Origin: Psychromonas sp. MME1
GTDB taxonomy: Bacteria; Pseudomonadota; Gammaproteobacteria; Enterobacterales; Psychromonadaceae
Reading direction: 5' to 3'
Assembly (NCBI RefSeq): GCF_041080865.1
Contig: NZ_CP160906.1
Coordinates: forward strand, 1,612,001 to 1,676,000
Length of the DNA stretch: 64,000 nucleotides
Shown here: piece by piece, positions 14,093 through 64,000 of the stretch
Numbering within the stretch: position 1 is the stretch's first letter
Layout: each line of letters opens with the position of its first letter
Notes under the pieces: generated by a model
The model's input: only the letters and a program-made list of their open reading frames with translations
The model's database searches: none
Told to the model about the DNA's origin: nothing
Made by a program: the position numbers and the translations under genes

Positions 14093-14150
14093 AGTGTTGC
14101 TCCTTTTAGGGTATACCCTATTTTTGTAGTTTTAGTTGTAATAAAAGCGC

Positions 14151-14837
14151 TTAGCGATGATCAACATGCTTAACTAAATAATCACCGACAGATTGAATGA
14201 GTTGTACCAAAATCACCAAAATAACAACGGTTATCAGCATCACTGAGCCATCAAAGCGTTGGTAACCGTAACGAATACCAACGTCACCAAGGCCACCGCC
14301 ACCAACCGTTCCCGCCATCGCCGAATAACCTACTAACGTAACGAGGGTGATCGTCGCTGCATTAATGATACCGGGAAGCGCCTCTGGTAATAGTACTTTA
14401 GTGATAATCTGCGCAGGTTTAGCGCCCATCGCCTGAGCTGCTTCAATCAACCCCGACGGCACCTCAAGTAACGCCCCTTCAACAAGACGCGCAATGAATG
14501 GAATCGCAGCAATAGTGAGAGGGACAATCGCCGCTGCCGTGCCAATTGAGCTACCAACCAGAAAACGAGTAAACGGAATAATAGCGACCAACAAAATAAT
14601 AAAGGGGATAGAACGCCCCATATTAACCACGGTTGACAATATTTTATTAAGCGCATGATTTTCTAATAGGCCTGATTTTTTACTTAAATGTAATAAAATA
14701 CCGAGCGGAATACCAAATAAAAAACCCACGAATCCAGAAGTAAACACCATGGCTAATGTTTGCCCTAGCGCGTCCACTAATAGTGCGATAAGGCGATCAT
14801 TGTTAGCCCACCAGCTAAAAATTGAATCAAGCGACAT
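14151..14837 (-). CDS. metI: D-methionine ABC transporter permease MetI
   Basis: A 228-residue inner-membrane permease with about five transmembrane helices. The EAA-type coupling motif region [22 protein letters not shown] contacts the ATPase. It overlaps the 3' end of metN by 11 bp, indicating translational coupling. Family and context (metN upstream, metQ downstream) agree. Confidence 0.95.
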
Positions 14838-46292: not shown

Positions 46293-46447
46293 TAATAGCG
46301 ATAGGATTAAGTATCAGATCTCAATTTTACACAGAAAGAGACGCTTGAGTTAGAGGTGTGAGTATATGTGAATAGGTATTCCCTTCACGAAACTTACAAC
46401 TAATATGGAAGTGATTTCAACCTGTAAAATAGATCTGCTATTTTATA
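46293..46447. repeat. degenerate copy 3 of the MITE-like repeat
   Basis: Recognisable pieces in the same order as copies 1 and 2: GGATTAAGTATCAGATCTCA, CACGAAACTTACAACTA, CTGTAAAATAGATCTGCTAT. The terminal ends are worn. It supplies the open frame upstream of the mdtA-like start. Confidence 0.65.
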
Positions 46448-46500
46448 TGCTCTTTCTTCTCGGCGTTTTACGTCAACATTTAACATTAAGGCTGTGGTTA

Positions 46501-47673
46501 ATGCAACGAGCAACTGTGAAAAAAATTCTGTTAATGCTAGCTGTTTTGATACTCGTTCTAGTATATAGCACCTATCAAAGGCAAGAAGCGCCTTTAACCG
46601 CTATTCAAGGTATGAGCAACGAAAACGATCCCTCAGCAACTGCTGTCGTTGTCGCCCCAGTTCGCCAAGATAATTTTAATATTGCTCAGTTCGCATTGGG
46701 CACCGTTACCCCGATAAATGTTGTTGATGTAAAAAGTCGCGTAGCAGGCCAGTTGATTAATATCGCCTTTGTAGAGGGCAAAATGATTAAGGCTGGCGAA
46801 CTATTAGCTCAACTGGATCCAAAACCATTTGCCGCTCAGCTAAAACTTGCCGAAGGACAATTACAATTAAGTAAAGCGCTACTGGAAAATGCCAAGGCAG
46901 ACGTAGAGCGCTATACATTATTACTTAGCCAAAAGTCGACATCAAAACAGACGCTCGAAGCTAAAGAGTCGCTTTTACAGCAATATAAAGCTACCGTAGC
47001 AGCAGATGAAGCGGCCGTTACCCGTGCTCAATTACAATTACAATACACTGATATTGTTGCGCCTATCAGTGGTCGACTAGGTTTTCGACAAGTGGATATA
47101 GGCAATGCAGTTAGCCCCACTTCAGCTAAAGGTATCGTGACAATCACACAGATAGATCCGATCGCCATTGTTTTCTCAATTCCTGAAGATACCTTACCTA
47201 AGGTACTCAAACAGATGCAGCTTAATGACAATATATCCGTTGATATTTATGATCGGGCCATGCACAAAAAAATGGCTACGGGACAATTATTAGCCGTTGA
47301 TAACCAAATAGATCCCCACACTGGCACCGTAAAACTTAAAGCGCAACTTAATAATAGTAATGGTCAGTTTTACGCCAATCAATTTGTTAATGTATCAATG
47401 ATAGTTGAGACATACCCACAGACAACATTAATCCCCACCTCTGCAATACAACGCGGTACACAGGGAACCTTTGTTTATCTGGTCGATGCCGATAATCTTG
47501 CCCGTGTCACCAAGATAGCGATCAGCGCAACTCAGGGTGAAGTTAGCGCGATTAGCACTGCAATCCCAAGTGGCGCTTTAGTTGTCACGCAGGGGGGAGA
47601 TAGGCTAAAAGCGAATGCAAAAGTTAAAATAATAAGCAATGATGAAAATATGAGTGATAACGATGCTCAGTAA
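46501..47673 (+). CDS. mdtA: multidrug efflux membrane fusion protein (MdtA-like)
   Basis: 390 residues from ATG 46501. An N-terminal anchor (VKKILLMLAVLILVLVYSTY) is followed by lipoyl halves VVDVKSRVAGQLINIAFVEG and TDIVAPISGRLGFRQVDIGN around a coiled-coil hairpin. The segment NQIDPHTGTVKLKAQ is typical of MdtA. The frame is open back to 46405, but that part derives from a degenerate MITE copy and is not family sequence. First gene of mdtA-mdtB-mdtC-outer-membrane factor. Confidence 0.88.
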   Translation: MQRATVKKILLMLAVLILVLVYSTYQRQEAPLTAIQGMSNENDPSATAVVVAPVRQDNFNIAQFALGTVTPINVVDVKSRVAGQLINIAFVEGKMIKAGELLAQLDPKPFAAQLKLAEGQLQLSKALLENAKADVERYTLLLSQKSTSKQTLEAKESLLQQYKATVAADEAAVTRAQLQLQYTDIVAPISGRLGFRQVDIGNAVSPTSAKGIVTITQIDPIAIVFSIPEDTLPKVLKQMQLNDNISVDIYDRAMHKKMATGQLLAVDNQIDPHTGTVKLKAQLNNSNGQFYANQFVNVSMIVETYPQTTLIPTSAIQRGTQGTFVYLVDADNLARVTKIAISATQGEVSAISTAIPSGALVVTQGGDRLKANAKVKIISNDENMSDNDAQ

Positions 47674-47772
47674 TGCGATGCCATCTACAAAAATTAAAAC
47701 TGACATCACCAAAAAAAATCCACTGACATCCCCCCTGATGTTTGTCCATTTTAATTCACAACAGGGTTGTCT

Positions 47773-50700
47773 ATGAATATTTCACGTCCCTTTATCCTAA
47801 GACCCGTTGCAACATCACTGTTAATGGTGGCAATTATGCTAGTGGGCATTTTTGCTTACCGTTTGTTGCCACTATCGGCTTTGCCTAAGTTTGATTATCC
47901 AATCATCCAAGTAGTCACATTATACCCAGGGGCTAGTCCAAAAGTTATCACCTCAACAATTACCGCCCCCTTAGAGCGGCAGTTTGGGCGTATTCCCGGT
48001 TTAAATCAGATGTCATCGACCAGTTCAGGCGGTGCCTCCATTATCACCTTACAGTTTAATCTTGATCTGCCATTAGATATTGCTGAACAAGATGTACAAT
48101 CGGCAATCAATGGCGCAGTCAGTGCACTACCAAGGGATCTGCCTCAGTTTCCTATTTACAATAAAATTAATCCGGCTGATCCGGCAATTATCACCTTGGC
48201 ACTCACCTCCGATACATTACCTTTATCCTTATTACAACAATTAGCTGAAACACGGTTAACAGCTAAAATTGCTCAAGTATCCGGCGTTGGACTGGTCAGT
48301 ATCAGTGGCGGACAGCGACCTGCTGTTAGAATCCAAGCCAATCCAAATGCATTAGCGGCTTACAAACTTTCCCTTGATGATTTACGTATAGCCATTGGCA
48401 ACGCGAACTCGAACTTACCCAATGGGGGATTTGACGGCCCAACTCAAGCTTCAATAATTAATGCTAATGATCAGCTTAAATCGATTGATGAATTCAAGTC
48501 GATGATTATTGCTTATCGTGATGGCTCCCCTATTCGCATGTCAGATGTTGCCGATGTAAGTGATGGCATTGAAGATACCCACCTTGCCGCTTGGGCAAAT
48601 AAATCGGCTGCATTAATTATAAATATTCAACGCCAACCCGATGCCAATGTTATCCGGGTAGTCGACAACATCAAAACATTACTCCCTGAATTACAAGCCT
48701 CTCTACCACAGGGCGTCAATGTTGCTACTTTATCGGATAGAACCGAAATGATCCGCTCCTCGGTACGTGATGTACAGTTTGAGCTATTTATTTCGATTGC
48801 CTTAGTCGTGATGGTGATATTTCTGTTTTTACGTAATATCCCTGCGACAATTATTCCAAGTGTCGCTGTACCACTCTCACTTGTTGGCACCTTTGCCGTT
48901 ATGTATCTTGCCGGTTTTTCTATTAATAACCTTACTCTGATGGCAATGATTATTGCGACGGGATTTGTGGTCGATGATGCGATCGTTATGATTGAAAATA
49001 TCATGCGTCATATAGAAGCCGGTGAGCCGCCACTCGTCGCTGCATTAAAAGGATCGAAACAAATTGGTTTCACCATTATTTCCTTAACCGTTTCATTAAT
49101 CGCCGTCATGATCCCTTTACTCTTTATGGGGGATGTTATAGGGCGATTATTTAGCGAATTTGCAATTACTCTTTCCGTGGCCATCTTAATTTCAGCGTTA
49201 GTCTCTTTGACCTTAACACCGATGATGTGCGCTCGTTTACTAAAACACGATCCGACTAAAAATCAAGCACAACAATTTCACGATAGTAATAGTTGGTTTG
49301 AGCGCCTGACGCGACGCTATGGAAAGCTGTTAGAGTGGGTACTTGCTCGACAAATGTTAACATTAATGGTCGCATTGGCAACCTTACTACTGACCTTTGT
49401 ATTATACGTTTTGATTCCAAAGGGGTTTTTCCCAGTACAAGATACAGGCGCAATTCAAGGTATTTCTCAAGCACCAGAGAGCATCTCATTTACAGCAATG
49501 GCTGAACGACAACAGGCATTAGGAGCGATCATACTCGAAGATCCTGCGGTGCAAAGCATCTCCTCTTTTATTGGTGTCGATAGTAGTAATCCGACACTTA
49601 ATAGTGGCCGTTTCACTATCAATTTAAAACCATTAGCAGATAGAGATGCCGGTGTTCAAGCGGTTATTCGACGCCTGCAAACAGCGGCACAAAAAATACC
49701 GGGAATCGAATTATTTATGCAACCTGTACAAGATCTCACCATTGAATATCAAGTGAGCCGTACACAGTATCAACTTTCCATCGAAGATGCTGATGGTGAT
49801 TTATTACGTCAATGGGTACCCCGTATTGTTTCACGATTACAGCAATCATCAACGTTAGCAGATGTAACCAGCAATCAACTTGATGCCGGGTTAGAAGCCC
49901 ACATAGAGATAAATCGCGATTTAGCAGGCCGATTAGGTGTCACTGCGCAGGCGGTCAATAACACGCTTTATAATGCCTTTGGCCAGCGACAAGTTGCCAC
50001 TCTATTTACAACAACTAGTCAGCAACATGTGGTTCTCGAAGTTAAACCTGAATTTAGCAAGGGTATTGAAGCATTGAATAATGTCTATATCAGTGTTGCC
50101 AATGGCAGTAAGCCTGATAAGCAAATACTGCTAACTTCCATAGCAGAAATCACTGAACGCAGTGCACCTTTAGCGATTAATCGTATCGGCCAGTTCCCGG
50201 CAATCACGATTTCCTTCAACCTTGCAGAAGGAGCGTCCTTGGATGCAGCGCTGGAGGCAATAGAGATTGCACAACATGATTTGCAATTACCCGCCAGCAT
50301 GCAGCTAAAACTGCAAGGCTCTGCCCAAGCCTTCAAAAGCTCATTAACAAGTCAGCTGTTATTAATTCTCGCTGCAATCATCACCGTTTATATTGTATTA
50401 GGTGTTCTTTACGAGAGCTATATCCACCCAATTACTATTCTATCAAGCTTACCCTCTGCAGGTATTGGAGCGTTACTTGCTTTGATGATGACGGGTAATG
50501 AGCTCAATGTTATCTCTATTATCGGGATTATTTTATTAATTGGCATCGTCATGAAAAATGCCATTATGATGATCGACTTCGCACTAGAGGCACAGCGAGA
50601 TGAAGGTATCAGCGCAAGAGATGCAATATTTAAAGCGTCACTACTGCGTTTTCGTCCAATCATCATGACATCGATGGCGACACTACTGGCTGCTCTACCA

Positions 50701-50868
50701 TTAATGCTTGGTTGGGGAAATGGCTCCGAGTTACGCCATCCGCTTGGTGTAACCTTAGTCGGGGGCTTGATTGTCAGCCAAATGCTAACGCTGTTCACCA
50801 CGCCTGTTATATATCTTCTATTTGAGCGACTCGGACATCGTAATAAAATGACCGATGATAATGAATAA
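47773..50868 (+). CDS. mdtB: multidrug efflux RND permease MdtB-like
   Basis: 1031 residues. It aligns by eye with E. coli MdtB through long blocks, for example [39 protein letters not shown] and [20 protein letters not shown]. The paired aspartates are present. ATG 47773 is preferred over TTG 47767. MdtB and MdtC form a B2C1 heterotrimer in E. coli, where it exports bile salts and novobiocin. Gene order here is the same. Confidence 0.92.
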
Positions 50869-50878
50869 GTGAATATCT

Positions 50879-53800
50879 ATGAATTTCTCTAAACCATTCA
50901 TCGATCGTCCCGTCGCAACCACATTACTCACTATTGGTATGATGTTGGTCGGTGCGGTTGCCCTGTACTTGCTTCCCGTTGCTCCTTTACCAAAGGTTGA
51001 TATTCCGACCATCAAAGTAAAGGCTTCATTACCCGGAGCAAGCCCAGAAACAATGGCAGCAGCCGTCACAACGCCGCTGGAACGATCCTTGGGACGCATA
51101 TCTGGTATTACAGAGATGACATCAACCAGTACCCTTGGTACGGCAAATATTGTTTTACAATTTGATTTTTCACGCGATGTAAACGGTGCCGCACGGGATG
51201 TGCAAGCCGCGCTAAATGCGGCACAAGGATCGCTGCCTGCCGGCCTTGCAAGTAATCCGAGTTATCGTAAAGTCGATCCGGCTGACGCCCCTGTCATGAT
51301 ACTTGGGCTGACATCGGATACCATGACTTCAGGGCAAATCTATGATGTAGCCTCGACCATCATTGCGCAGAAATTATCGCAATTAAAAGGCGTTGGCGAT
51401 GTTGAAATCGGTGGAGGCTCCCCCCCTGCTGTACGAATTGAGTTAAATCCCCATGTCCTTAATCAATATGCAATTGAATTTAAAGATGTGCGTAACGCCA
51501 TCGCGGCTACCAACTCATACCAACCACAGGGTGCATTAGAGGAAGGTGATAAACGCTGGCAATTATCGGTCAATAGCGAAGCGAGTAATGCGCAAGCGTA
51601 TATGCCAATCATCATTGGTTACAATCAATCAGGAGCCAGTTTACAACTTAAAGATGCCGCCAATGTGGTTGATTCCGTTAAAGATTTACGCCATGCCGGA
51701 TTAGCAAATGAAAAGCCAGCGGTGCTCGTATTAATCAGGCGCGCCCCTAATGCAAACATCATTGAGACCGTTGAAAGCGTCAACCAACTACTGCCCACTC
51801 TGCAAGCCTCATTACCTAATGCGCTCGACGTTGATGTTATGATGGAACGGACATCAACTGTTCGCGCTTCGATGCACGATGCGGGTGAAACGCTTATCAT
51901 AGCCGTTATATTAGTCACCTTAGTTGTACTTTTATTCTTACGTAATTGGCGAGCGGCACTGGTTCCGATTGTAGCGGTTCCGGTATCTTTAATCGCAACT
52001 TTTTCCATGATGTATCTGCTCGATTACAACTTAGATAATTTATCGTTAATGGCATTAACCATTGTCGTTGGCTTCGTCGTTGATGACACCATTGTGGTAC
52101 TTGAAAATGTAATGCGCCACATCGAAAATGGTTTATCTCCTCGTGCGGCCGCCTTAGTGGGTGCCAAGGAAGTGAGTTCAACTATACTGACCATGACCCT
52201 AGTTTTGATTGCCGTATTTTTACCCATGCTATTAATGGGAGGCTATGTCGGATTATTTGTACGTGAATTTGCCGTTACATTAGCCGTTGCTATCATCATT
52301 TCCTTAATTGTTGCATTAACAACTGCGCCTATGATGTGTGCACAATTACTAAAATCCGCTGATGCAATACCTAAACACAACAAACTCTACCAATGGAGCG
52401 AACGCGGTTTTACAGCGCTGTTACGTGGTTATGATGTCAGTTTACAGTGGGTACTTAAGCGCCCTAAATTTACCATGCTGATGCTACTGGCAACGATATT
52501 TTTCAATGTCTACCTTTATGTGATAGTGCCTAAGGGCTATTTCCCTGAACAAGATACAGGACAAATAACCGGCAGGATTGAGGGTGACCAAAGCGCCTCA
52601 TTCAAGGTAATGGAAAGTAAACTAAAGCAATATATCGAACTAATTAGTGCCGATCCAGGCGTAGATAGTGTGGTCGGATTTACCGGAGGGGGTCAAAGTA
52701 ATAGAGGTGAGCTATTTATTATGCTCAAACCTTTGGCGGACCGCGGCGTTACCGCATTTGAAATTGTAGAACGGCTACGCCCACAAATTGATAACATTCC
52801 CGGTGCGCTATTGACCCTAAAACCTGTACAAGATATTCGTATGGGTGGCCGTCGTAGCCGCTCTTCCTACGAATACACCCTGCAATCCGATGACCTTGAT
52901 ATTCTCAGGGAATGGGAGCCTAGGATCCGTAACGCTCTCGCAAAAGTCCCTGAATTAATTGACGTTGATACCGATGAGCAAAATAAAGGGATACAGACGG
53001 AGTTAGTCATTGATAGAGATGCAGCCGCTCGCTATGGTATTACCATTAAACAGATAAATACACTGCTTAACCATGCCTTTGCACAACGATCTGTAGCAAC
53101 TATTTATGAACCATTGAATCAATATCAGGTGGTCATGGGATTAGCGGCTGAATATGCACAATCACCACAATCACTGGATCATATCTACCTTAAATCGGCT
53201 GATGGCGGACAGGTCCCGCTTTCCATGATTGCGACCTATCAGCAAAGCGTTTCTGGATTAAGAGTTGAGCACCATGGCTTGCTCCCTGCTATCAATATCT
53301 CCTTTAATCGCGCTCCCGGCGTCTCTTTATCTCAGGCGACTAATGCCATTAAGGCTGCAATGGAGGATATTGGCGTACCCAGTGCGATTCGCGGTAGTTT
53401 TCAAGGCTCAGCAAAAGCATTTAAAAAAATGCTTGATGAACAGCCTATTTTACTACTCGCCGCTTTCTTAACACTTTATATTGTTTTAGGTATGCTCTAT
53501 GAAAGCTTAATTCATCCATTAACAATATTATCAACACTCCCATCTGCGGGAGTTGGCGCACTCTTAGCCCTACTCTTTTTTGAGACCGATTTTAATGTCA
53601 TTGCCATGATTGGTATTTTTATGCTGATCGGAATTGTAATGAAAAATGCGATCATGATGATTGATTTCGCTCTCGCGGCACAACGTCAATCATCAATTAC
53701 ACCGGAAAAGGCGATCTATGAAGCTTGTATATTGCGATTTAGACCAATATTAATGACCTCGCTTGCTGCATTACTTGCAGCTATTCCATTAGCTATCGGT

Positions 53801-53998
53801 CAAGGAGATGGCGCTGAAATGCGCCAACCACTTGGCATAGCCATTGGTGGAGGATTAATTATGAGCCAATTATTAACACTCTATACCACCCCCGTTGTTT
53901 ATCTTTACCTAGATAAGTTCAGCCATTGGTTAAAGCAATTACGCCGCCCTGTTCATCGCACCACGGATATCACAAACGTGGTGGAGGATTTAAAATAA
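50879..53998 (+). CDS. mdtC: multidrug efflux RND permease MdtC-like
   Basis: 1039 residues. Starts MNFSKPFIDRPVATTLLTIG and carries VVGFVVDDTIVVLENVMRHI in helix 4. About 10 bp after mdtB. Its stop overlaps the next ATG by one base (TAATG). In E. coli MdtC is the drug-binding partner in the MdtB2C1 trimer; this copy has the same proton-relay residues and should be functional. Confidence 0.92.
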   Translation: MNFSKPFIDRPVATTLLTIGMMLVGAVALYLLPVAPLPKVDIPTIKVKASLPGASPETMAAAVTTPLERSLGRISGITEMTSTSTLGTANIVLQFDFSRDVNGAARDVQAALNAAQGSLPAGLASNPSYRKVDPADAPVMILGLTSDTMTSGQIYDVASTIIAQKLSQLKGVGDVEIGGGSPPAVRIELNPHVLNQYAIEFKDVRNAIAATNSYQPQGALEEGDKRWQLSVNSEASNAQAYMPIIIGYNQSGASLQLKDAANVVDSVKDLRHAGLANEKPAVLVLIRRAPNANIIETVESVNQLLPTLQASLPNALDVDVMMERTSTVRASMHDAGETLIIAVILVTLVVLLFLRNWRAALVPIVAVPVSLIATFSMMYLLDYNLDNLSLMALTIVVGFVVDDTIVVLENVMRHIENGLSPRAAALVGAKEVSSTILTMTLVLIAVFLPMLLMGGYVGLFVREFAVTLAVAIIISLIVALTTAPMMCAQLLKSADAIPKHNKLYQWSERGFTALLRGYDVSLQWVLKRPKFTMLMLLATIFFNVYLYVIVPKGYFPEQDTGQITGRIEGDQSASFKVMESKLKQYIELISADPGVDSVVGFTGGGQSNRGELFIMLKPLADRGVTAFEIVERLRPQIDNIPGALLTLKPVQDIRMGGRRSRSSYEYTLQSDDLDILREWEPRIRNALAKVPELIDVDTDEQNKGIQTELVIDRDAAARYGITIKQINTLLNHAFAQRSVATIYEPLNQYQVVMGLAAEYAQSPQSLDHIYLKSADGGQVPLSMIATYQQSVSGLRVEHHGLLPAINISFNRAPGVSLSQATNAIKAAMEDIGVPSAIRGSFQGSAKAFKKMLDEQPILLLAAFLTLYIVLGMLYESLIHPLTILSTLPSAGVGALLALLFFETDFNVIAMIGIFMLIGIVMKNAIMMIDFALAAQRQSSITPEKAIYEACILRFRPILMTSLAALLAAIPLAIGQGDGAEMRQPLGIAIGGGLIMSQLLTLYTTPVVYLYLDKFSHWLKQLRRPVHRTTDITNVVEDLK

Positions 53999-55349
53999 TG
54001 ATAGCCCCTCTACAAAAAAATATATTAAGCAAACTTATTTGCATCTCATTGGCCACCTTTAGTATTGGTTGTACCGTTGTTGGCCCTGATTATGAGCGCC
54101 CAAGCATGGATATACCCGATGCCTATAAAGAAAGCGCTGATAATAATCAGTTATCCAATTTCAAAGTAACAAATAACGCTGCTTGGTGGTTGGTTTATAA
54201 CGATTCGGATCTTGATCAACTACTTTCTCAAGTGGAACTAAATAATTATTCATTACAAAGCATGGCAGCCAAATTATCACAGGCGACCGCATTAGCGAAT
54301 ATCGCTCAAGCGGGGAAATCACCAACCGTTGTTGCCGGTGGTAGCAATGATTTGGGGATTTTAATGAATTGGGAGCTCGATTTATGGGGCAAACTGCAAC
54401 GTAACATTGAAGCCAATGAAGCCTTTGTTGCAGCAAGTCAAGCGGACCTTGCGGCTGCCAAATTATCATTACAGGCACAACTTGCAAAAAACTATTTTCT
54501 GTTAAGAGTGCAAGATGAAGAGCTATCGCTATTACAAAATACCGTCTTTTCCTATGAAAGTTCTTTACAGATCACCCGTAATCAATATGATGCTGGCGTC
54601 GCTAATAGCGATAATATTGCGCAAGCACAGGGTCAATTAAGCAGCGCAAAAGTTCAATTATTTAATGCGCAAATAACACGCGCGCAACTTGAACACAGTC
54701 TTGCAATACTAACGGGCAAAGCACCTAGTGATTTTTCACTTCCAGCAAAATCTTTTGCTATACAAGTACCGATCATTCCTGAAACCTTACCCGCAGACCT
54801 ACTGAACGCCGCCCCGATATTGTTGCTGCAGAAAGACGCATGGCGGAAGCTAGTGCAAAAATTGGGGTTGCCATGGCACAAGCATACCCAGAGGTTAGCC
54901 TATTTGCAGGAGCCACTATCTCGCGTGGTTTAATAGGAGGTGCAAAAGGAGAGGTACCACTCTATTCTGCAGGTGCAATTGACGCATTAAGCAGCTCTGC
55001 AAAGGCTGAATATGAATCCGTTGTCGCCAATTATCGTCAAACCATACTTAATAGTTTTAAAGAGGTGGAAGACAGCATGGTCGAATTGCAACTACTAGAG
55101 GAAGTATCTCACTCTCAAAACAATGCATTAACTGCATTACGTGAAGTCGTGAAGGTGACCAATAATCAATATAACGCTGGTGTTACAAACTACCAATCGA
55201 TCATTATTGCGCAGGCCTCGGCCCTCTCCAATGAGCGCGAAGCATTAAAAATTCTAGGGCGTCGCCTACTAGCAAGTGTGACATTAATTAAATCACTTGG
55301 TGGAGGGTGGCAGGCTACACCTCCCACTAGCGAAGAAACTGAGCAGTAG
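53998..55349 (+). pseudogene. outer-membrane factor lipoprotein (NodT/OprM family), single-base frameshift
   Basis: Lipoprotein signal with lipobox FSIGC, then the outer-membrane factor fold: VVGPDYERPS, WWLVYNDSDLDQLL, NWELDLWGKLQRNIEA. The frame breaks at 54804/54805. Family members read L-L-E-R-R-P-D-I-V-A-A-E-R-R-M-A-E-A there, but the sequence has CTACTGAACGCC where CTG-GAA-CGC is expected, so one G is missing. The second part (from 54807) continues RRPDIVAAERRMAEASAKIG to the end at 55349. The segment after KSPTVVAGG also seems 20-30 residues shorter than usual. Either a real loss of the local channel or a sequencing error. Confidence 0.85.
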
Positions 55350-55369: not shown

Positions 55370-55912
55370 CTACCAATACATTGTCAAGTTAAGCCCAACA
55401 CCTTGGGTATCGACCCAAGGTGTTAACTGTACTTGATCATCATAAGCATCAGTAAAAAACCAACCACTTGCAATGCCGATAGCGGCGCCCGCTAACACAT
55501 CATGCCAATAGTGTTTATCTGCAGCGACACGAGCCCCACCAGTAAGCGACGCTACGGCATAGGCAGGGAATCCAATTTCCCAACCGTAACGACGATGTAG
55601 CGTTGTCGCTGAAGCAAAGGCCCTTGTTGTATGGCCAGAAGGAAAACTATCATTATCACTCTTATCAGGGCGTTCCTCATTGATTAGCGCTTTACCAACA
55701 AAAGTAACTCCACTAGCTAAAAGAATACTATAGCCTGCTTGACGGGTACCTTCCCAGTCATCACGTACTGCCGGCAACGCTAAGGCAGTACCAAGTAAAG
55801 AATAAACACCGATGTCACTGATGTTCTCCCATTTCTTATCACTTAAGGCATGCGCAACGGGAATGGTTGAAACCATTAATATTAAAAAAGAACCGATATA
55901 ACGAGAAAACAT
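55370..55912 (-). CDS. PAP2-superfamily lipid phosphatase
   Basis: 180 residues with an N-terminal signal or anchor (MFSRYIGSFLILMVSTIPVAHA). The three phosphatase motifs are present: KALINEERP, FPSGHTTRAFAS and RVAADKHYWHDVLAGAAIG, with catalytic histidines in SGH and the last motif. The active site should face the periplasm and remove phosphate from lipid pyrophosphates or phosphatidate-like lipids. Proximity to the sphingolipid-like cluster invites a role in that pathway, but this is inferred from position only. Confidence 0.9.
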   Translation of the reverse strand: MFSRYIGSFLILMVSTIPVAHALSDKKWENISDIGVYSLLGTALALPAVRDDWEGTRQAGYSILLASGVTFVGKALINEERPDKSDNDSFPSGHTTRAFASATTLHRRYGWEIGFPAYAVASLTGGARVAADKHYWHDVLAGAAIGIASGWFFTDAYDDQVQLTPWVDTQGVGLNLTMYW

Positions 55913-55970: not shown

Positions 55971-56699
55971 TTAACAGGTATGTTTATCATATCCACGTTC
56001 AGTTAATGATTGTGATATAACCTCTCTTACCTCCGCTAATACATCCTCTAACGGTTGTACTGTGTCTATTTCTGCAATAGGTGCGCCATTAAAGGTAAGT
56101 TGCGGGACAACTTTAATTTTTTTCTCTAATGAATCTCTTTTGTGGTCTGGCTTACGTGCACAGGCAGTATCCAAATCAACATTCAGTCTAATCACTAAAT
56201 CAGGGGTATAACTGGTCATCCATTGAAAAGCTTTATGCTCTTGCTTGGCTAACCAACGTACAATAGAGCTCCCCTTGGCCGTAATCGATAATCCTGGACC
56301 ATCAATCGCTTTAGTATATTCATTTTGCGGATAGCGATCGGTAATAATAATTAACCCTTTACTGCGTAATTTCATCATACGATGATACCGGCGCAGGCGT
56401 CTTAGAGTCAGTAAATAGATAACTAATGACGGTAAAAATTCCGGTGTTTTGTCGGCGTCATAAGCTTTATGCACCTTTACCGCTTTACTTTCTTGAACTC
56501 GTTCAATCCATTTGCCAATCAATGGTAAATTATTTAAGGCTCGCCCAAGGTTGCCCCCTTGCTTACCTAAATGTGCACTTGCTGCAGGACCATAACTTTG
56601 TGCCCATACCAAAGCTTGTTCGACAACGGTTGATTTCCCTGAACCATCACAACCGACTATCGCTATCATCGGTGCTAGTTTTTTTTCATTGGCTGACAT
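55971..56699 (-). CDS. thymidylate-kinase-like P-loop kinase, paralogue 1
   Basis: 242 residues. Walker A GCDGSGKST (16-24), LID/base region with ITDRYPQNEYTKAIDGPGL, and a C-terminal signature RKPDH...LTFNG shared with two paralogues at 57862 and 58655. True thymidylate kinases are about 210 residues and differ in these motifs, so the substrate is open. Encoded on the opposite strand to the other two, with a CHAD-like gene between. Confidence 0.75.
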   Translation of the reverse strand: MSANEKKLAPMIAIVGCDGSGKSTVVEQALVWAQSYGPAASAHLGKQGGNLGRALNNLPLIGKWIERVQESKAVKVHKAYDADKTPEFLPSLVIYLLTLRRLRRYHRMMKLRSKGLIIITDRYPQNEYTKAIDGPGLSITAKGSSIVRWLAKQEHKAFQWMTSYTPDLVIRLNVDLDTACARKPDHKRDSLEKKIKVVPQLTFNGAPIAEIDTVQPLEDVLAEVREVISQSLTERGYDKHTC

Positions 56700-56947: not shown

Positions 56948-57835
56948 ATGAAATCGGAAGCTGACAAAAGTTTTGCCACCAATACCACTATAGATCAGCC
57001 GTTACCATTTACTAGGGAACAGTGTGAAAAACTTTTTGCAGCTGTGCTTGTACATGACGATATCTATCCAAATGCAACGCTTCCCGATGAAATCCACCTA
57101 AACTATAGTCAAGCACAACTTAATCAATGCTATCAACTATGCCTACAACTTTGGGAACTCGGTGTACAACGGCAAACCTTAAAAGCACTGATTTTCAAAA
57201 TATACCGACAACACCAACTTGACCCTGCTGAACAGGAGGTCTATAAAGATATCCGAGCTAAATTCAAACACCTTCGCTTTGCCTATGTGACCTGTGGAGA
57301 GAATCATACATACCCTAACCTTTTTAGTAATTTAACTAGAAAGATGGGGAAATTTCAGGATGCGTTTAAAAATAAAAAATATAGCAACATGAAATGGGCC
57401 GTTAATCGATTACGCATATTACTTACCCCCTTTGTTTATAGATTTATAACAAGGGAAGTGGAGCACTTTAAAGCAAGTAGCACGGAAACGTTTCAACACT
57501 ATATACATAGTGAAATTGATTTTATACGTTTACACCTTAAGCAATCTGAAGTGACCGGAAAAGAGTTTCATGAAACGAGAAAAGTCATTAGCCGTCAAGT
57601 TGCTCTTTACGACAATCTCAAAGTTCTTTATCCATCACAGTACCACAACAAGATCTCTGAATATCTTAGTACAATAAATGGTATGATGGGCAGCTTTCAT
57701 GATGATCTGATTATCACTAAGTTCGCAGATCCTGAAAAATATTTTGAGGATACTTTTCCAATACCAGCTGAGATAAAAGTACGCTTAGAAAGCTACACGC
57801 AAAAATTCCAGTTAATGAAAAGTACAGAGCATTAA
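56948..57835 (+). CDS. possible CHAD-domain protein
   Basis: 295 residues, largely helical, with no signal peptide. The C-terminal half has FHETRKVISRQVALYDNL and YLSTINGMMGSFHDDLIITK, which resemble the conserved histidine helices of CHAD domains (polyphosphate-binding in known cases). The N-terminal half (1-110) is unassigned. AGGA lies 7 nt before the ATG. It is followed 26 bp later by kinase paralogue 2, so they are probably co-transcribed. The CHAD call is by eye. Confidence 0.55.
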   Translation: MKSEADKSFATNTTIDQPLPFTREQCEKLFAAVLVHDDIYPNATLPDEIHLNYSQAQLNQCYQLCLQLWELGVQRQTLKALIFKIYRQHQLDPAEQEVYKDIRAKFKHLRFAYVTCGENHTYPNLFSNLTRKMGKFQDAFKNKKYSNMKWAVNRLRILLTPFVYRFITREVEHFKASSTETFQHYIHSEIDFIRLHLKQSEVTGKEFHETRKVISRQVALYDNLKVLYPSQYHNKISEYLSTINGMMGSFHDDLIITKFADPEKYFEDTFPIPAEIKVRLESYTQKFQLMKSTEH

Positions 57836-57861: not shown

Positions 57862-58584
57862 TTGAAATCTTCATATCCACAAAAAGAGCAGGTTCTTAGC
57901 AATGTCATTGCCGTAATTGGCTGTGACGGCTCAGGAAAATCGACACTAACCGCTGATTTACTGACACAATTACAATCACATGCCCCTGTTGAGCTACTCT
58001 ATTTAGGGCAATCATCCGGCAATATTGGCGATTGGATAAAAAGCCGTCCATTCATTGGCCCGTCATTGAGTCGCTACTTAAAAAACAAGGCTAAAGGTGC
58101 TCATAGCAAAGAGAGCAAATCACCCGATACAGCGACCACAATCGTAATATATCTGCTCTCCCTATGGCGAGCACATAAGTTTCGGCGCATGTTATCACTT
58201 ACCCGTAAAGGCACATTAGTGATCACGGATCGTTATCCTCAGGCTGAGACGGCAGGGTTTTACTTCGATGGCACAGGGCTCGGTGGATTAAATCACAATA
58301 GTTGGTTAGTGCGTAAATTAGCAGCTCGAGAGCAAAAACTGTATGAATGGATGGCCAGCCATATTCCGACACTATTAATACGACTTAATATTGATGCACA
58401 AACGGCACACGATCGTAAACCCGACCATAAATTAAAAATGTTAGAAGCCAAAGTGTCGGTTATTCCAACCCTCACTTTCAATGGTGCGGATATTCTCGAA
58501 TTAGATGGTACCTCTCCTTACCAGCAGGTGCTAGATACCGCCTTAACAAAAATCAACCAAAAATTAACCCGTAATAGATTTTAA
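57862..58584 (+). CDS. thymidylate-kinase-like P-loop kinase, paralogue 2
   Basis: 240 residues from a TTG start (no better start is available before the P-loop; the ribosome-binding site is poor). Walker A GCDGSGKST at 20-28, VITDRYPQAETAGFYFDGTG near 120, and DRKPDHKLKMLEAKVSVIP near 178. It is about equally similar to paralogues 1 and 3. Function unknown; phosphorylation of a small nucleotide- or lipid-linked substrate is possible. Confidence 0.72.
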   Translation: MKSSYPQKEQVLSNVIAVIGCDGSGKSTLTADLLTQLQSHAPVELLYLGQSSGNIGDWIKSRPFIGPSLSRYLKNKAKGAHSKESKSPDTATTIVIYLLSLWRAHKFRRMLSLTRKGTLVITDRYPQAETAGFYFDGTGLGGLNHNSWLVRKLAAREQKLYEWMASHIPTLLIRLNIDAQTAHDRKPDHKLKMLEAKVSVIPTLTFNGADILELDGTSPYQQVLDTALTKINQKLTRNRF

Positions 58585-58654
58585 TCCCCTAGATAACCGG
58601 CGTATGCTTAATTTTTAGCTATCCTTGTTATTAATATTATTAACTGAGTTTTAC

Positions 58655-59383
58655 ATGTTTGAATTTAAACGCAATAAAAAAAGAATCGATACACCTCTGA
58701 TCGGGGTCGTCGCCGTTGTCGGTTGCGATGGTACAGGAAAATCTACCCTAACGGCAGATTTACTCACTCATCTACGGGCTAATGGTCGCGTTGAAAGACG
58801 TTATTTAGGCACTATTTCGGGTGAAATGGGTGACAAAATAAAATATATCCCATTTTTTGGTGTTAGATTAGAACGCTATCTCAATGCTAAAGCGCAACGT
58901 GCGCAAGATATCAAGAAAAATTTACCCGGTACAACCACCTCGATCATTATGTACATCCTCTCTTGGTGGCGTGCACTGCAACTACTCAAAGTTCGTCGAT
59001 TGTCACGTAAAGGAATACAAGTTATTGCAGATCGTTATCCTCAAGCTGAAATAGCCGGTTTTCATTATGATGGTCCAGGTTTAACCGTAAATAGAACCAA
59101 TAACTTACTAATTCGTAAACTTGCAGAGCGTGAACAACGACTCTATGAATGGATGGCTTGTCACAAACCGGATCTCATCATTCGCCTTAACATAGATGCG
59201 GATACCGCCTATTCTCGCAAACCAGACCATAACATCGTAGAGTTACGTGATAAAATTTCAGTGATGCCACGCTTAACATTTAATGGCGTACAGATTTGCG
59301 ATATCGATTCCCGAGCGCCCTATCAAGAAGTCTTAGAGGCGGCCTTACAAGCTATCGCTCAATATCACAATAAGCGCCAATAA
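58655..59383 (+). CDS. thymidylate-kinase-like P-loop kinase, paralogue 3
   Basis: 242 residues from ATG 58655 (the open frame extends to a TTG at 58625, but the ATG has GAG upstream and matches the length of its paralogues). Walker A GCDGTGKST at 23-31, VIADRYPQAEIAGFHYDGPG near 123, SRKPDHNIVELRDKISVMP near 183. It lies 70 bp after paralogue 2 in the same direction. Confidence 0.72.
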   Translation: MFEFKRNKKRIDTPLIGVVAVVGCDGTGKSTLTADLLTHLRANGRVERRYLGTISGEMGDKIKYIPFFGVRLERYLNAKAQRAQDIKKNLPGTTTSIIMYILSWWRALQLLKVRRLSRKGIQVIADRYPQAEIAGFHYDGPGLTVNRTNNLLIRKLAEREQRLYEWMACHKPDLIIRLNIDADTAYSRKPDHNIVELRDKISVMPRLTFNGVQICDIDSRAPYQEVLEAALQAIAQYHNKRQ

Positions 59384-59392
59384 AAGATAGCC

Positions 59393-59887
59393 ATGACATT
59401 GAAATATAAACTCCCACTATGTTTTTCGCTATGCGTTGCGGCAAATGCCTTTGGCCTGCCGTTATCAACAGAGGGTAAAGGCGAGGTTTATGGTCTTTGG
59501 CTCGAACGTGATAAACAAAAAGTGGCGGTATTGGTTGAGGATTGTCAGGGACAGTTATGCGGAAAAATAGTCTGGTTGAAAAAGCCTTATAAGAAAGATG
59601 GTAAACCTAAACTTGATAGCAAAAATCCAGACAAAGCACGACGAAATACTCCTCGTTGTGGCTTGACCATACTCTCTGGATTTACTGCCGTTGATAAAAA
59701 CCATTGGCGCGATGGAACGATTTATAACCCGAGCGATGGTGATACCTACCGCAGTACTATCGAGCTTACTGACCAAGGGGAGCTCGAAGTAAGAGGCTAT
59801 GTCGGTATTCCCTTTTTTGGGATAACAACACATTGGATCCGTCCAAACAGTAAACTACAGTGGTGTAATAGCAATTGGTATGAATAG
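59393..59887 (+). CDS. DUF2147-family secreted protein
   Basis: 164 residues with a signal peptide (cleavage near NAFGLP, residues 18-23). The mature domain has the DUF2147 pattern: VYGLWLERDKQKVAVLVEDC, LCGKIVWLKKP, DGTIYNPSDGDTYRSTIEL and VRGYVGIPFFGITTHWIRP. This is a small beta-barrel of the lipocalin-like type, with unknown ligand. It starts 10 bp after kinase paralogue 3 and ends 5 bp before the convergent flippase gene, so it belongs to the plus-strand group CHAD-kinase-kinase-DUF2147. Confidence 0.88.
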   Translation: MTLKYKLPLCFSLCVAANAFGLPLSTEGKGEVYGLWLERDKQKVAVLVEDCQGQLCGKIVWLKKPYKKDGKPKLDSKNPDKARRNTPRCGLTILSGFTAVDKNHWRDGTIYNPSDGDTYRSTIELTDQGELEVRGYVGIPFFGITTHWIRPNSKLQWCNSNWYE

Positions 59888-59891
59888 CAAA

Positions 59892-61241
59892 CTACTTGCT
59901 CTTTTTCTTCACCACAGGAATAGTTAATATACTTTTATGGATTAAATTTAACATAACCATGGGAGGAATTGCCGCACCAACACAAGCTGCTATTCCTGCA
60001 CCAATCAAACTAAAAAATGAAGTCAACGCAAAAAACATCACTAAATAAAGCAGTGCAGATAGCGTATAAACACGCAAAACTAAACCAGCATGACCAATCG
60101 CATAAGATGCCGAACGTAATGACGAGGCCGTCAAATCTAAGGTAGATGCAAACAATAATAGTGCCAGTACTGGTGCTGCTGCAATATACTCTTGACCGAC
60201 AGTAAGTTGTAGCAATGCCTCTCCAAAGAAAAGAGCGACAACGACAAAGACAAGGCCAAATAATGCACCTAGCATGGCCGTTCGATAGGCCACGACTTTA
60301 AAGTCACTACTGCCCTGATTCCAACTACGCGTTAAATCAAGAAAGACCACTTGACGAATCAGTGCCGCAGGCTGTGAAAGTAAACTAGAAAACTGCCGTG
60401 CTAGACGTAATAAACCCGCTTCTGATGCTCCCAATAAGTAACCAGCCAACATCACTGTGATACGTTTAGGAACCATATCGACATTAGCTTGCCAATAGGT
60501 CACCCAAATAAAATGGCGTAGCCCTGTGAATTCGTCAACTCGCATATTATGTGTATCTTGTGAATTTTCAGCAGGCCCGATTTTTTTACGGTATTCACGC
60601 CACCCATAAAAATTTAGGTAGAGATCTTCACTTATTGAACCAATTGCTAAGATAGAAATAAACACAGCAAATGAAGCATCAAACCACCATGCAATACAAA
60701 CACCTACAAAACGAACGAGTGGTCCAACTGACATTTGTTTGCCGATAATATCAAATTTATCAAATAATCGCAGAAGACCTCGAGAGGTGCCATTGCCTAT
60801 CGAAGCGAAAATAACAAAACTATATAGGGTGAGAAAAAAAACGTGGTTACTATCCATTCCCATGTGAGGGCCAACGACGGGTGCTAACAATATCGCAATG
60901 ATCGCCCCACTCGCAGTTGTGATAAGGTCAAGACGCCAACAAATCTGAATTAAACGACGTAATGTACGGGTATCTTTAGCATCATAGGCAGGCACACCAA
61001 ATCGAACAATGGCATCAAAAAGTTTAAAATTAAGCAGGCCTCGAGTCAGTAATGCATAGGTTTCGATCAACACTATCATACCAAACTCAACAGGCCCAAG
61101 TACTCTGGCAAGTAGAGCCGTAACACCAAATAACATCAAGGCGGCAACCACTCGTCCGCGAGCAAGCAGCAAAAAATTACTTAACACTCTACGCATTGGA
61201 CTTTGCACGGGAGATATCGCTTTAGCACTACTCACGTGCAC
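59892..61241 (-). CDS. polysaccharide/lipid flippase-like membrane protein (MOP superfamily)
   Basis: 449 residues with about 12-14 transmembrane helices. N-terminal LARVLGPVEFGMIVLIETYAL is typical of Wzx/lipopolysaccharide O-unit flippases. It is the last gene of the operon that starts with the reductase at 63706, about 55 bp after the serine-palmitoyltransferase-like gene. It may move the lipid (or a glycosylated form) across the inner membrane; the substrate is inferred only from context. Confidence 0.82.
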   Translation of the reverse strand: MHVSSAKAISPVQSPMRRVLSNFLLLARGRVVAALMLFGVTALLARVLGPVEFGMIVLIETYALLTRGLLNFKLFDAIVRFGVPAYDAKDTRTLRRLIQICWRLDLITTASGAIIAILLAPVVGPHMGMDSNHVFFLTLYSFVIFASIGNGTSRGLLRLFDKFDIIGKQMSVGPLVRFVGVCIAWWFDASFAVFISILAIGSISEDLYLNFYGWREYRKKIGPAENSQDTHNMRVDEFTGLRHFIWVTYWQANVDMVPKRITVMLAGYLLGASEAGLLRLARQFSSLLSQPAALIRQVVFLDLTRSWNQGSSDFKVVAYRTAMLGALFGLVFVVVALFFGEALLQLTVGQEYIAAAPVLALLLFASTLDLTASSLRSASYAIGHAGLVLRVYTLSALLYLVMFFALTSFFSLIGAGIAACVGAAIPPMVMLNLIHKSILTIPVVKKKSK

Positions 61242-61295
61242 TTCCTTTTATCATAATAAGCATCACTTATTGAATACTATTTTTCTCATTGATGT

Positions 61296-62498
61296 TTATG
61301 ACGCACGTAGTTGCAGTTGTAATTTTTTACCTAACGTAGCAAATATGTCACAAATAGTGTCAATCTGTTGATCCGTATGTGCAGCACTAACGCTACAACG
61401 AATTAAGAAAGCACCATTAGGTGTCGCAGGCGGTATCATCAAGTTAGTGTAGCCCCCCATTTCAAGAAGATTATCCCAGAAGGTAAGCACTTCCATTTTA
61501 TCTTTGAAAACCACCGCAACCACAGGACTTGCAGGCGCGCCCAAGGTATAACCTAACGCACTAAGCCCTGCATGTAAGCGCCTTGCATTGTAATGCAATC
61601 GCGCACGCAAATCTTTCCCCTCAGCGACCTTAACTAATGCCGCCCTCGTTGTGGCAATCGTTGATGGTGAAGGCGATGCCGTAAAAATATAGGGACGACT
61701 TGAATAGCGAATAAGATCTAATTCAGGGTGGTTACTCACACAGTAACCACCAGCAGCGCCAAGACTCTTACTAAAAGTACCAACGATAAAATCAATATCA
61801 TCCAATACACCAAGTTCCTCAGCTAAACCACTGCCTCGTTCACCGAGTACGCCTAGGGAGTGTGCTTCATCTACAAATAAGTAACCACCATATTCACGTT
61901 TTACGGCAATGAACTCATTTAATAATGCGTGGTCACCAAGCATGCTGTAGATACCTTCAACGACAATCAAAGCCTCAGAGGCTTTGTCACCAAGGCGTTG
62001 CAAACGTTTTGCTAAATGTTCAGGATCATTATGACGGAAACGTAACGTTTTTGTTCCACCTAAACGGCAGCCATCGTAGATGCTGGCATGGCAATCAGCA
62101 TCTAATATGACGGTATCATCGGGGCCGGCAAGTGTTGATAACATGCCTAAATTAGCTAAATACCCCGTAGAAAATACAATACAATCCCTTTTTTGATAAA
62201 ATGCAGCCAATTCCAACTCTAAATTTCGGTGGCCAGAATAACTCCCATTAGCCATACGCGAACCAGTTGTCCCAGTCCCTTCGAATTCTAATGCATTGTA
62301 TGCAGCGTCAAGGCAGTCTTTATCAAATGTCAGACCTAAGTAATTATTTGTGCCCGCTAAAATCGTTTTTCGCCCGCGAATAATCCCCTCCGTTGGGCTA
62401 TTCATTTTTTCAACCTGGATGCCAAAGGGATCGATTCCTAACATTTCAAGTTGTTGGCGTTTCTCTAAAATAGCGTTGAATTTTGTAAAAATGCTCAT
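61296..62498 (-). CDS. spt: serine palmitoyltransferase-like alpha-oxoamine synthase
   Basis: 400 residues. PLP enzyme that would join serine and a fatty acyl thioester to give 3-oxo-sphinganine. PLP lysine K244 in VGTFSKSLGAAGG, ring-stacking H137 in DADCHASIYDG, D210 and H213 in VDEAHSLGVLG. These positions track those of Sphingomonas SPT (K265, H159, D231, H234) with a constant offset of 21-22. Blocks ending RPYIFTAS and PPATP-G-FLIRCS-SAAHT are characteristic of SPT rather than KBL or BioF. The start overlaps the ACP stop by 4 bp (ATGA), suggesting acyl-ACP as donor. Specificity for serine is inferred. Confidence 0.85.
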   Translation of the reverse strand: MSIFTKFNAILEKRQQLEMLGIDPFGIQVEKMNSPTEGIIRGRKTILAGTNNYLGLTFDKDCLDAAYNALEFEGTGTTGSRMANGSYSGHRNLELELAAFYQKRDCIVFSTGYLANLGMLSTLAGPDDTVILDADCHASIYDGCRLGGTKTLRFRHNDPEHLAKRLQRLGDKASEALIVVEGIYSMLGDHALLNEFIAVKREYGGYLFVDEAHSLGVLGERGSGLAEELGVLDDIDFIVGTFSKSLGAAGGYCVSNHPELDLIRYSSRPYIFTASPSPSTIATTRAALVKVAEGKDLRARLHYNARRLHAGLSALGYTLGAPASPVVAVVFKDKMEVLTFWDNLLEMGGYTNLMIPPATPNGAFLIRCSVSAAHTDQQIDTICDIFATLGKKLQLQLRAS

Positions 62499-62743
62499 AT
62501 CTCACCAGCTGTAATTTTTTCTATTTGTATCACAAGATCCTTGACGGTCTTTACGTTTTTTAAAACACTAACTGGAATTGATATCTCATAATAATCTTCT
62601 ACGTCCAGTATCAATTCCATGATATGCAAAGAATCCAATTGTAATTGTTTAACTAAATCAGTGTTTTCATCTATTTCTAAATATTTTTCTGTTCGTAATG
62701 CGAGGGCGTTACACACATAAGCAAGCAAACTTTGCTGTTCCAT
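62495..62743 (-). CDS. dedicated acyl carrier protein
   Basis: 82 residues. The phosphopantetheine attachment serine is S38 in QLDSLHIMELILDVEDYY. It is acidic and four-helix by pattern. It is not the housekeeping AcpP (the sequence around DSL differs). It starts directly after the reductase stop (TAA then ATG) with GGGGG upstream, and overlaps the SPT-like gene. It probably delivers the acyl chain to that enzyme. Confidence 0.9.
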   Translation of the reverse strand: MEQQSLLAYVCNALALRTEKYLEIDENTDLVKQLQLDSLHIMELILDVEDYYEISIPVSVLKNVKTVKDLVIQIEKITAGEI

Positions 62744-63706
62744 TTAGCCCCCTTTAGATTTATCATCTTTATTGAAGATAGTTGCCAAACCACGTTGCAA
62801 ATTATATTGCGGTTGCCAGTCAATCACCTGACGGAATGCTTTATTATCTGCTAACCAATCAGGGTGGATAATTTCTCTTACCTTACCAGGCGTTAACATT
62901 GGCGCATAGGAAAACAATGTTGCAGCGAACAAATTAATCTTCGCGACTATATTAAAAATAAATATAGGGATCTGTATCCGCCGGACTTTACCACCATCAC
63001 GTAACACGCGGCTACCAATTTCAAGGATGTTAGCCCAGTTATAGCCACCTTGAAAACCATCGTCTAGCTCAAATGTCTGACCATAGCCGCTGTCCGCTTC
63101 TAACCAAGCGATTATAGCCAGCGCTAAATCATCAACATAAATCATCGATATACTGCTATTTTTCACTGCTGGCGTAGGGGCAAAGCCATTCGCGATACTG
63201 CGAAATAGTGGCAATAACTCTTTATCCCCCGGTCCATATACCGCAGGCGGTCGTAATATTGTCCAGCGTAAATTTTTTGCTACCTTTTTTAGCGCGCACT
63301 CTCCACGCCATTTGCTGCCTGCGTAATAAGATAATTGTGACTCACGTGCTGCTAATGATGAAATAAGTAGAAAACGAGGCGCAATGCTTTGCTCCGCTGC
63401 AGCTTCGGCTACATTTAAAGCCCCCTGTTCATTTACCTTATCAAAATCTTCCTGAGTAGCCCCCCTTACCACACCCGCACAATGAATAACGGTATGCGTA
63501 CCTTTGACAAAATCACGCAATAATTGCGGATTGCTCAAATCGCCTGCAACCCAGGTTACTCCGGGCAATTTTGGCTGAGTCCGTCCTTTTTTAGGGCGAT
63601 ACAGGGCACGCACATGCCAGCCCCTATGTACAAGCAAGGAGATAAGCCGGCTTCCGATAAATCCGGTCGCGCCAGTAAGCGCTATTTCTAATTTAGTAGT
63701 AGACAA
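62744..63706 (-). CDS. NAD-dependent epimerase/reductase, CerR-like
   Basis: 320 residues of the extended short-chain dehydrogenase family. The cofactor loop is TGATGFIG at 11-18. The catalytic residues are S116/S117 in LLISSLAA and the Y128-x3-K132 motif in YYAGSKWRG. In Caulobacter the 3-ketosphinganine reductase CerR is a member of this same family and is encoded near spt and acp; the gene order here is comparable. So a keto-reductase role after the SPT-like step is a reasonable inference, but a sugar-nucleotide epimerase cannot be excluded. First gene of the operon. Confidence 0.8.
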   Translation of the reverse strand: MSTTKLEIALTGATGFIGSRLISLLVHRGWHVRALYRPKKGRTQPKLPGVTWVAGDLSNPQLLRDFVKGTHTVIHCAGVVRGATQEDFDKVNEQGALNVAEAAAEQSIAPRFLLISSLAARESQLSYYAGSKWRGECALKKVAKNLRWTILRPPAVYGPGDKELLPLFRSIANGFAPTPAVKNSSISMIYVDDLALAIIAWLEADSGYGQTFELDDGFQGGYNWANILEIGSRVLRDGGKVRRIQIPIFIFNIVAKINLFAATLFSYAPMLTPGKVREIIHPDWLADNKAFRQVIDWQPQYNLQRGLATIFNKDDKSKGG

Positions 63707-64000
63707 TTTTTGATCTTAATTTATGGCAAGGGTTTTGAACATGGTTAGCGTTATATGAATTCATCCATGACCTCACGATAGCAGTATTAAACCGCTGCAT
63801 TATACATACCAGCTATGTTGATGCAAACTCAATACCTCAACTCATTGCATACTTATAATGAATTGTGTGACCGACTAATAATAACAGGATGCTACATGCC
63901 TAAGAATCAGTAATTATTTAAAAAACAGTGACTTTTTATGACTATTAAATGACTCTGCAACTCTTTCTGTTTGATTTTTATATATTCAAAAACAAAACCA
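63707..64000. other. upstream region of the sphingolipid-like operon
   Basis: About 290 bp to the window edge, AT-rich and with no gene. It should contain the operon promoter. I see no recognisable operator. Confidence 0.4.

Follow-up and report, generated by a model that had tools for sequence, protein, structure and literature searches.

A probable ceramide-synthesis locus without AasR in Psychromonas sp. MME1

Serine palmitoyltransferase (SPT) in alpha-, beta- and gammaproteobacteria is described as always co-occurring with genes for an acyl carrier protein (ACP) and an acyl-CoA synthetase, the latter having been shown to be AasR, an acyl-ACP synthetase (PMC9386255). Since 3-oxo-sphinganine is reported to arise from the joint action of the E. 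coli proteins AasR, AcpR and SPT (PMC9386255), a system of this type is already known in gammaproteobacteria. For Caulobacter, CC_1166 has been named as a potential flippase and LptC2/F2/G2 as likely transport parts (PMC11324152), and a 2024 paper states that its authors had by then identified no flippase or transporter of bacterial sphingolipids (PMC11087976). Here we analyze a stretch of 64,000 nucleotides from Psychromonas sp. MME1 (contig NZ_CP160906.1, positions 1,612,001 to 1,676,000; hereafter the window), which carries an spt gene together with acpR, cerR and a flippase gene. The source genome (G000), a single contig of 3,590,786 bases and 99.96% complete, has no AasR ortholog.

Homology and gene order make it likely, with a probability of about 0.8, that the locus serves ceramide synthesis and is a proteobacterial (rhodobacterial) one of the Caulobacter/E. 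coli B kind, in a derived form from which AasR has been lost. Four open reading frames (ORFs), all on the minus strand, make up its core (59892..63706), and the tight coupling described in the original prediction is borne out by the junctions read in the sequence. The gene cerR (62744..63706, 320 amino acids, TTG start) encodes a predicted NAD(P)-dependent ketoceramide/3-ketosphinganine reductase of the extended short-chain dehydrogenase/reductase type, with an Epimerase Pfam match above cut-off, the motifs GATGFIG and YxxxK, 58% identity to its Sulfuritalea counterpart and an N-terminus that in the alignment opens straight into the nucleotide-binding fold. Its TAA stop adjoins the ATG of acpR (62495..62743), which encodes a specialised ACP of 82 amino acids with the DSL serine kept and a PP-binding Pfam match above cut-off, and acpR in turn overlaps spt (61296..62498, 400 amino acids) in an ATGA. 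After a gap of 54 bases follows the gene for a flippase of the multidrug/oligosaccharidyl-lipid/polysaccharide (MOP) type (59892..61241, 449 amino acids, GTG start; Polysacc_synt Pfam match above cut-off), whose true start is probably a second GTG at 61235, six bases inside the first, because it is better spaced from an AAGGAAG stretch. These boundaries hold four of about eleven locus genes, and all eleven are open frames. A promoter and terminator scan gave 9 promoter-like sites, against 16.9 in shuffles.

Family score, tree and residues support the identification of the 400-residue protein as a rhodobacterial serine palmitoyltransferase. It scores 619.4 bits against NCBIfam NF047599 (proteobacterial serine palmitoyltransferase; cut-off 500), remains below the cut-offs of the BioF, glycine C-acetyltransferase (KBL), CqsA-type and 5-aminolevulinate synthase (ALAS) models, and has SPTs as its best PDB matches (2x8u, 430 bits). 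H137, D210, H213 and K244 align with H159, D231, H234 and K265 of 2jg2, a chain named serine palmitoyltransferase that we take to come from S. paucimobilis; these would be the stacking histidine, the Asp/His pair and the pyridoxal 5'-phosphate lysine, as we assume their roles to be, and they track Sphingomonas SPT as had been proposed. Arg378 of 2jg2 aligns with Ile355 here, and arginine is found at this position in none of the six SPTs compared, that of E. coli included. In a quick tree of 88 rows, the 82 SPT rows separate from six outgroup rows with very long branches (support 99*); L005 and L018 among the latter pass the BioF and KBL cut-offs, and the other four group with L018. A BioF, KBL, CqsA or ALAS identity is rejected on the model cut-offs, and for BioF and KBL on the tree as well, CqsA and ALAS having been judged by model score only. 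Placement with the SPTs, the sequence-based check set by the original prediction, holds for both score and tree, and with cerR, acpR and cerS as neighbours the protein fits the earlier description of a sphingolipid-type SPT operon in a gammaproteobacterium.

The ceramide synthase gene that had been suspected beyond position 64000 or elsewhere is indeed found beyond it. It begins 187 bases past the window end on the same contig (L009:8187-9341, which would be window 64187-65341, plus strand) and is divergent from cerR. Its 384-residue product, a YghO-type N-acyltransferase (CerS/bCerS), has no Pfam or NCBIfam match at E 0.001 and is 68% identical to the Sulfuritalea protein. We predict it to be a ceramide synthase because it is 51% identical over 375 residues to E. 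coli YghO, and yghO has been assigned as the acyltransferase gene aca (PMC9386255).

The kind of system is known, since nine genes correspond one-to-one with the ygh ceramide locus of E. coli (L051, L085; E. coli B in PMC9386255), at identities of 51% for cerS/YghO, 41% for cerR, 36% for acpR, 54% for spt, 25% for the flippase, 33% for a helical protein, 55% for YghR, 54.5% for YghS and 51% for YghT. The E. coli locus holds yghO, fatty acyl-AMP ligase, CerR-type gene, ACP, spt and LptG/F-like genes, together with a YtfJ-family gene, a gene for a hypothetical protein, one of flippase type and three that resemble kinase genes; its aasR, LptF/G-like pair and YtfJ-family gene are all absent from the window locus, and its SPT belongs to a different SPT clade. 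Closer in sequence are betaproteobacterial loci from Sulfuritalea, Methylotenera and others (L100-L103), with SPT at 69-73% and cerS at 59-68% identity to the window. The order in L100 is that of the window locus (cerS, cerR-acpR-spt-flippase, DUF2147, YghR, YghS), whereas all four carry aasR between cerS and cerR, which the window and the genomes G035 and G458 do not; L103, unlike the window, has no flippase homolog labelled. With Caulobacter crescentus (CC_1165-CC_1162, CC_1154, CC_1166, LptF2/G2) the window shares the SPT, AcpR, CerR and CerS steps, and a potential flippase gene lies next to the operon there too (PMC11324152; also L176, a Caulobacter metagenome-assembled genome); unlike Caulobacter, the Psychromonas genome has neither AasR nor a second LptF/G pair and has additional YghRST kinases. 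The proposal that a private ACP and a CerR-type gene follow the Caulobacter logic holds only in part, as AasR is missing. Likewise, of the published AasR-AcpR-SPT pathway (PMC9386255) we find the ACP gene before spt, cerR/epi and cerS/aca, but not AasR.

The absence of AasR, as judged from genome searches, appears to be a new exception to the published co-occurrence of SPT and AasR, and it is here that the novelty of the locus lies. Profile and similarity searches revealed no AasR ortholog in the single-contig source genome, nor in the drafts G035 and G458. A profile built from eight AasRs matches 20 of the 22 SPT-bearing genomes of the class at 2.4e-236 or better; G000 and G035 alone among the 22 have no match at 1e-70. 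At the order level, G703 and G739 match below 1e-282, and G000, G035 and G458 give partial matches only, none better than 4.9e-24 (the best, in G458). That AasR is merely unlinked from the locus is rejected for the source genome by these genome-wide searches. The source genome encodes nine AMP-binding proteins (11 matches), the best-scoring of which against E. coli AasR is FadD-like, at 24% identity; AasRs at 17 SPT loci of the class are 43-49% identical to the E. coli protein. Of these proteins, two acetate-CoA ligases and OleC score above a curated cut-off. The other six do not, and their best models are FadD, FadD11-like, Aas-type, MenE (two) and 4-coumarate-ligase-like.

Surveys of other SPT loci show how rare this arrangement is. 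Seventeen of 20 class-level SPT neighbourhoods carry aasR, and the contig of one of the other three ends inside cerR. Among the 80 named SPT loci, which are the best 80 of a longer scan list, aasR is on the fetched stretch in 66, and in 43 of the 44 where labels exist for cerS as well as cerR; the exception, L099, lies on a contig equal to that of G035. Fisher values calculated from this survey take no account of common descent. Twelve of the 14 named loci without aasR on the stretch belong to genomes with a match elsewhere (the L103 genome matching as a positive control), among which G435 matches only through a 982-residue frame at 1e-127, perhaps a different ligase, and the matches of G428 and G433 cover part of the profile only, at contig edges. 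No match was obtained for the other two: G438 has an SPT contig equal to that of G035, and in G436 the contig starts within cerR. No aasR remnant was found in the 480-base cerR-cerS intergenic region of the source genome (63707..64000 in the window and 186 more bases past its end), where tblastn with the AasR ORFs of the loci reached a best E of 0.14 over 15 amino acids, or between cerR and cerS in G035. The same region of G458 contains AasR-like stretches of 15-19 residues (best E 0.005), which we do not count as a remnant. The AasR-less layout is common to the source genome, G035 and G458, which represent two families and share proteins that are about 52-74% identical. Titles and abstracts of the open literature searched, a scope outside which subscription papers and preprints fall, reported no AasR-less SPT locus and no sphingolipid efflux pump of the resistance-nodulation-division (RND) family.

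A careful tree of 31 SPTs unites the source genome, G458 and G035 (as L099) in one clade (96/93, starred), with the aasR-bearing Sulfuritalea and Methylotenera as its sister group (85/89, not starred); three Rhodanobacteraceae and a further two betaproteobacterial loci complete a clade of ten rows (100/99, starred). The SPT of E. coli groups with G739, Rosenbergiella and G703, and Pseudomonas is placed further out. The larger quick tree, which lacks G458, G703 and G739, agrees on these groupings. Because the sister betaproteobacterial loci keep aasR between cerS and cerR, its loss looks derived. CerS, CerR, the flippase, DUF2147, YghR and YghS have their best or near-best matches in the betaproteobacterial loci, G035 or G458, while YghT and the helical protein are, among the named loci, closest to those of Rhodanobacteraceae. 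Over the length of the Sulfuritalea stretch, the gene order differs from that of Sulfuritalea only in the missing aasR. In G458, which belongs to another family, the block that runs from the RND permeases to cerS is conserved, but aasR and the gene for the helical protein are absent. The simplest reading is a betaproteobacterial-type locus that lost aasR once, either before or after transfer between families. Base composition gives no signal of recent transfer (GC 40-42% in the locus, 40% in the window).

Sphingolipid synthesis had been called uncommon in gammaproteobacteria, and by species it is sparse, with SPT in 21 of 369 class genomes, 5 of 394 order genomes and 1 of 24 genus genomes in the samples searched. 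Yet the operon DNA matches 4055 of 5426 E. coli genomes over about a quarter of its length; the 20 matches listed show about 65% identity over 25% of the query, and all 20 are annotated as spt.

Reading the reactions and their order from gene content, homology, catalytic residues and synteny, we propose that SPT would form 3-oxo-sphinganine from serine and a long-chain acyl thioester, which is most likely still carried by AcpR. Without AasR, AcpR might be loaded from fatty-acid synthesis or by a different acyl-ACP ligase; the genome encodes one of Aas type. The MOP flippase may move the lipid, or its head-group-bearing form, across the inner membrane, and the YghRST-type kinases and a PAP2 phosphatase probably have a phosphorylated head group or precursor as their target. 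One candidate for loading AcpR, by sequence likeness, is the Aas-type acyl-ACP ligase near 2.76 Mb of G000, where the ligase and a part resembling a major facilitator superfamily/acyltransferase protein occupy adjacent ORFs (L055:1066-2541 and 2565-3989); the best-matching family model has both parts as one long protein.

Several observations weigh against a functional, derived AasR-less pathway. Caulobacter AcpR was hardly loaded by the acyl-ACP synthetase of Vibrio harveyi, and in coexpression neither this enzyme nor an acyl-CoA synthetase replaced AasR (PMC9386255), so a substitute would not be easy to come by. In addition, the G035 and G458 assemblies are drafts of 85 and 93% completeness, aasR could sit on a plasmid absent from the assembly, and the SPT branches of the AasR-less three (0.34, 0.23 and 0.16) exceed those of their sisters (0.029 and 0.067). 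Loss of AasR could itself be a sign of a decaying pathway, although frames and catalytic residues are intact. We regard it as quite unlikely that the locus is a decaying remnant of a horizontal gain from which no sphingolipid is made: the missing aasR and second LptF/G pair, the longer SPT branches and the occurrence of SPT in just one of 24 congeners would agree with decay, but eleven open frames, and an AasR-less layout kept in three genomes of two families at about 52-74% identity, would not be expected, as neutral decay should break frames.

A doubtful but more serious possibility is that SPT uses acyl-CoA directly and AcpR is accessory or a leftover. The lack of AasR, the presence of a FadD-like ligase and the ability of palmitoyl-CoA to serve Caulobacter SPT (PMC9386255) are in keeping with this, yet AcpR has been retained, its gene overlaps spt, and the carrier serine is intact in the window, G035 and G458. 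It is very improbable that the enzyme is another alpha-oxoamine synthase (of the BioF, KBL, CqsA, ALAS or cysteate acyltransferase type) with a non-sphingolipid product; the common superfamily and lesser matches to those models and to a cysteate-C-fatty acyltransferase chain are outweighed by scores below the rival cut-offs and above that of SPT, by the best PDB matches and by the adjoining cerS, cerR and acpR. An AcpR-dependent ceramide locus that has lost aasR is thus our preferred reading. By kind this is a known SPT operon; as a genome with AcpR and SPT but no AasR ortholog it is a natural exception for identifying the SPT acyl donor and opens that question, and perhaps also that of export, to testing.

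With regard to export, the flippase gene in the operon, which had been taken to suggest a dedicated export step, is confirmed as present; it is not unique, for 16 of the 80 named SPT loci carry a homolog. The flippase, of what we take to be the YghQ/CC_1166 type, is homologous to, and placed like, flippases beside other SPT loci. A second LptF/G pair of the Caulobacter LptF2/G2 type was not found in the source genome, which has two adjacent PF03739 genes, i.e., one pair. Exactly two LptF/LptG genes are present in all ten genomes examined from the SPT clade of the window, and in a comparison set of 21 further SPT genomes, 15 contain at least three and six contain two. Those six (L107, L111, L133, L160, L171 and L178) were chosen for having no LptF/G labelled at the SPT locus, and as they too have one pair, having just one does not set this clade apart; L154, L158 and L115 have none at the locus or stretch, yet three to five such genes in the genome.

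A predicted MdtABC/MuxABC-like RND pump is encoded on the plus strand at 46405..55349, comprising an adaptor (46405-47673), two permeases (47767-50868 and 50879-53998) with MdtB/MuxB and MdtC as best NCBIfam matches, both below the equivalog cut-offs, and an outer-membrane factor divided between two ORFs that overlap (53926-54933 and 54840-55349); adaptor and outer-membrane factor are named by look and neighbourhood. Both ORFs of the split outer-membrane factor match one open ORF in G458 (L189:225-1610). An MdtB/MdtC-like permease is found on the SPT stretch of seven clade members (L102-L106, G458 and the window), in varying positions: L102 and L103 have one permease, cut by the stretch end, and an adaptor to the left of cerS, in L104-L106 two permeases lie to the right of the gene for the helical protein together with an outer-membrane factor, and G458 and the window have permeases and an outer-membrane factor beyond the PAP2 gene. 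None was seen on L100 (17.7 kb) or the short L099 and L101 stretches, whose lengths differ, such that absence from a stretch is not absence from the genome. Among the 72 named loci outside the clade, RND proteins occur at 1e-20 only in L155 and L169 (24-29% identity). We infer that the pump is part of the sphingolipid locus; that it exports sphingolipid is a guess. It is unlikely that the whole clade has been rewired, with AcpR charged from fatty-acid synthesis or by a non-cognate ligase and with the RND pump and MOP flippase, instead of a second LptF/G pair, carrying sphingolipid to the outer membrane. The flippase and the clade-linked pump are concrete transport candidates, in a host where no second LptF/G pair would obscure the outcome.

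The remaining locus genes lie between the pump and the flippase gene. On the plus strand are a DUF2147 protein (59393..59887; Pfam match), SPT-linked mainly within the SPT clade of the window and found at six of the 80 named loci (L100-L103, L116 and L119) and in G458, a YghR-like P-loop kinase of thymidylate-kinase fold (58625..59383), a YghS-like P-loop kinase (57862..58584) and an all-helical, weakly CHAD-like protein of 295 residues (56948..57835) without a Pfam match. On the minus strand are a YghT-like P-loop kinase (55971..56699) and the PAP2 phosphatase (55370..55912; Pfam match), which has a 61% identical counterpart in the same place in G458 (L189). YghR is presumably the name of the E. 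coli counterpart, a gene carrying no name in the annotation. A structure model of the YghR-type kinase (mean predicted local distance difference test, pLDDT, 83.5) has thymidylate kinase as its best PDB match (E 2.5e-6), and 14 sequences of the three kinase types show no or almost no variation in the P-loop residues, DR(Y/F)PQ and RKPDH. These kinases do not resemble CpgB, a ceramide kinase whose domain is of the diacylglycerol-kinase type (PMC10331486). The best PDB match of the helical protein model (pLDDT 80.6) is a CHAD domain (E 0.21, probability 0.96), which makes the CHAD assignment a weak one; the protein has a counterpart in the E. coli locus and none was seen in G458.

Further observations concern related loci and the source genome. 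In E. coli F9792, aasR (L051:8991-10682) is annotated with an internal stop and is intact in strain C21, so some E. coli strains may themselves be without a working AasR. Seven loci (L067, L069, L118, L121, L122, L140 and L142), several of them named Thiogranum or Thiohalobacter, show acpR-spt only with LptF/G upstream, and aasR-type matches occur elsewhere in their genomes. The source genome encodes OleC, an olefin beta-lactone synthetase (L057, near 1.425 Mb of G000; 959 bits against a cut-off of 850), from which long-chain olefin synthesis in this organism is likely. Finally, the helical, weakly CHAD-like family without a Pfam match accompanies the YghRST-type kinases at SPT loci, with two copies at the Luteibacter locus (L104:12501-13337 and 13362-14198).

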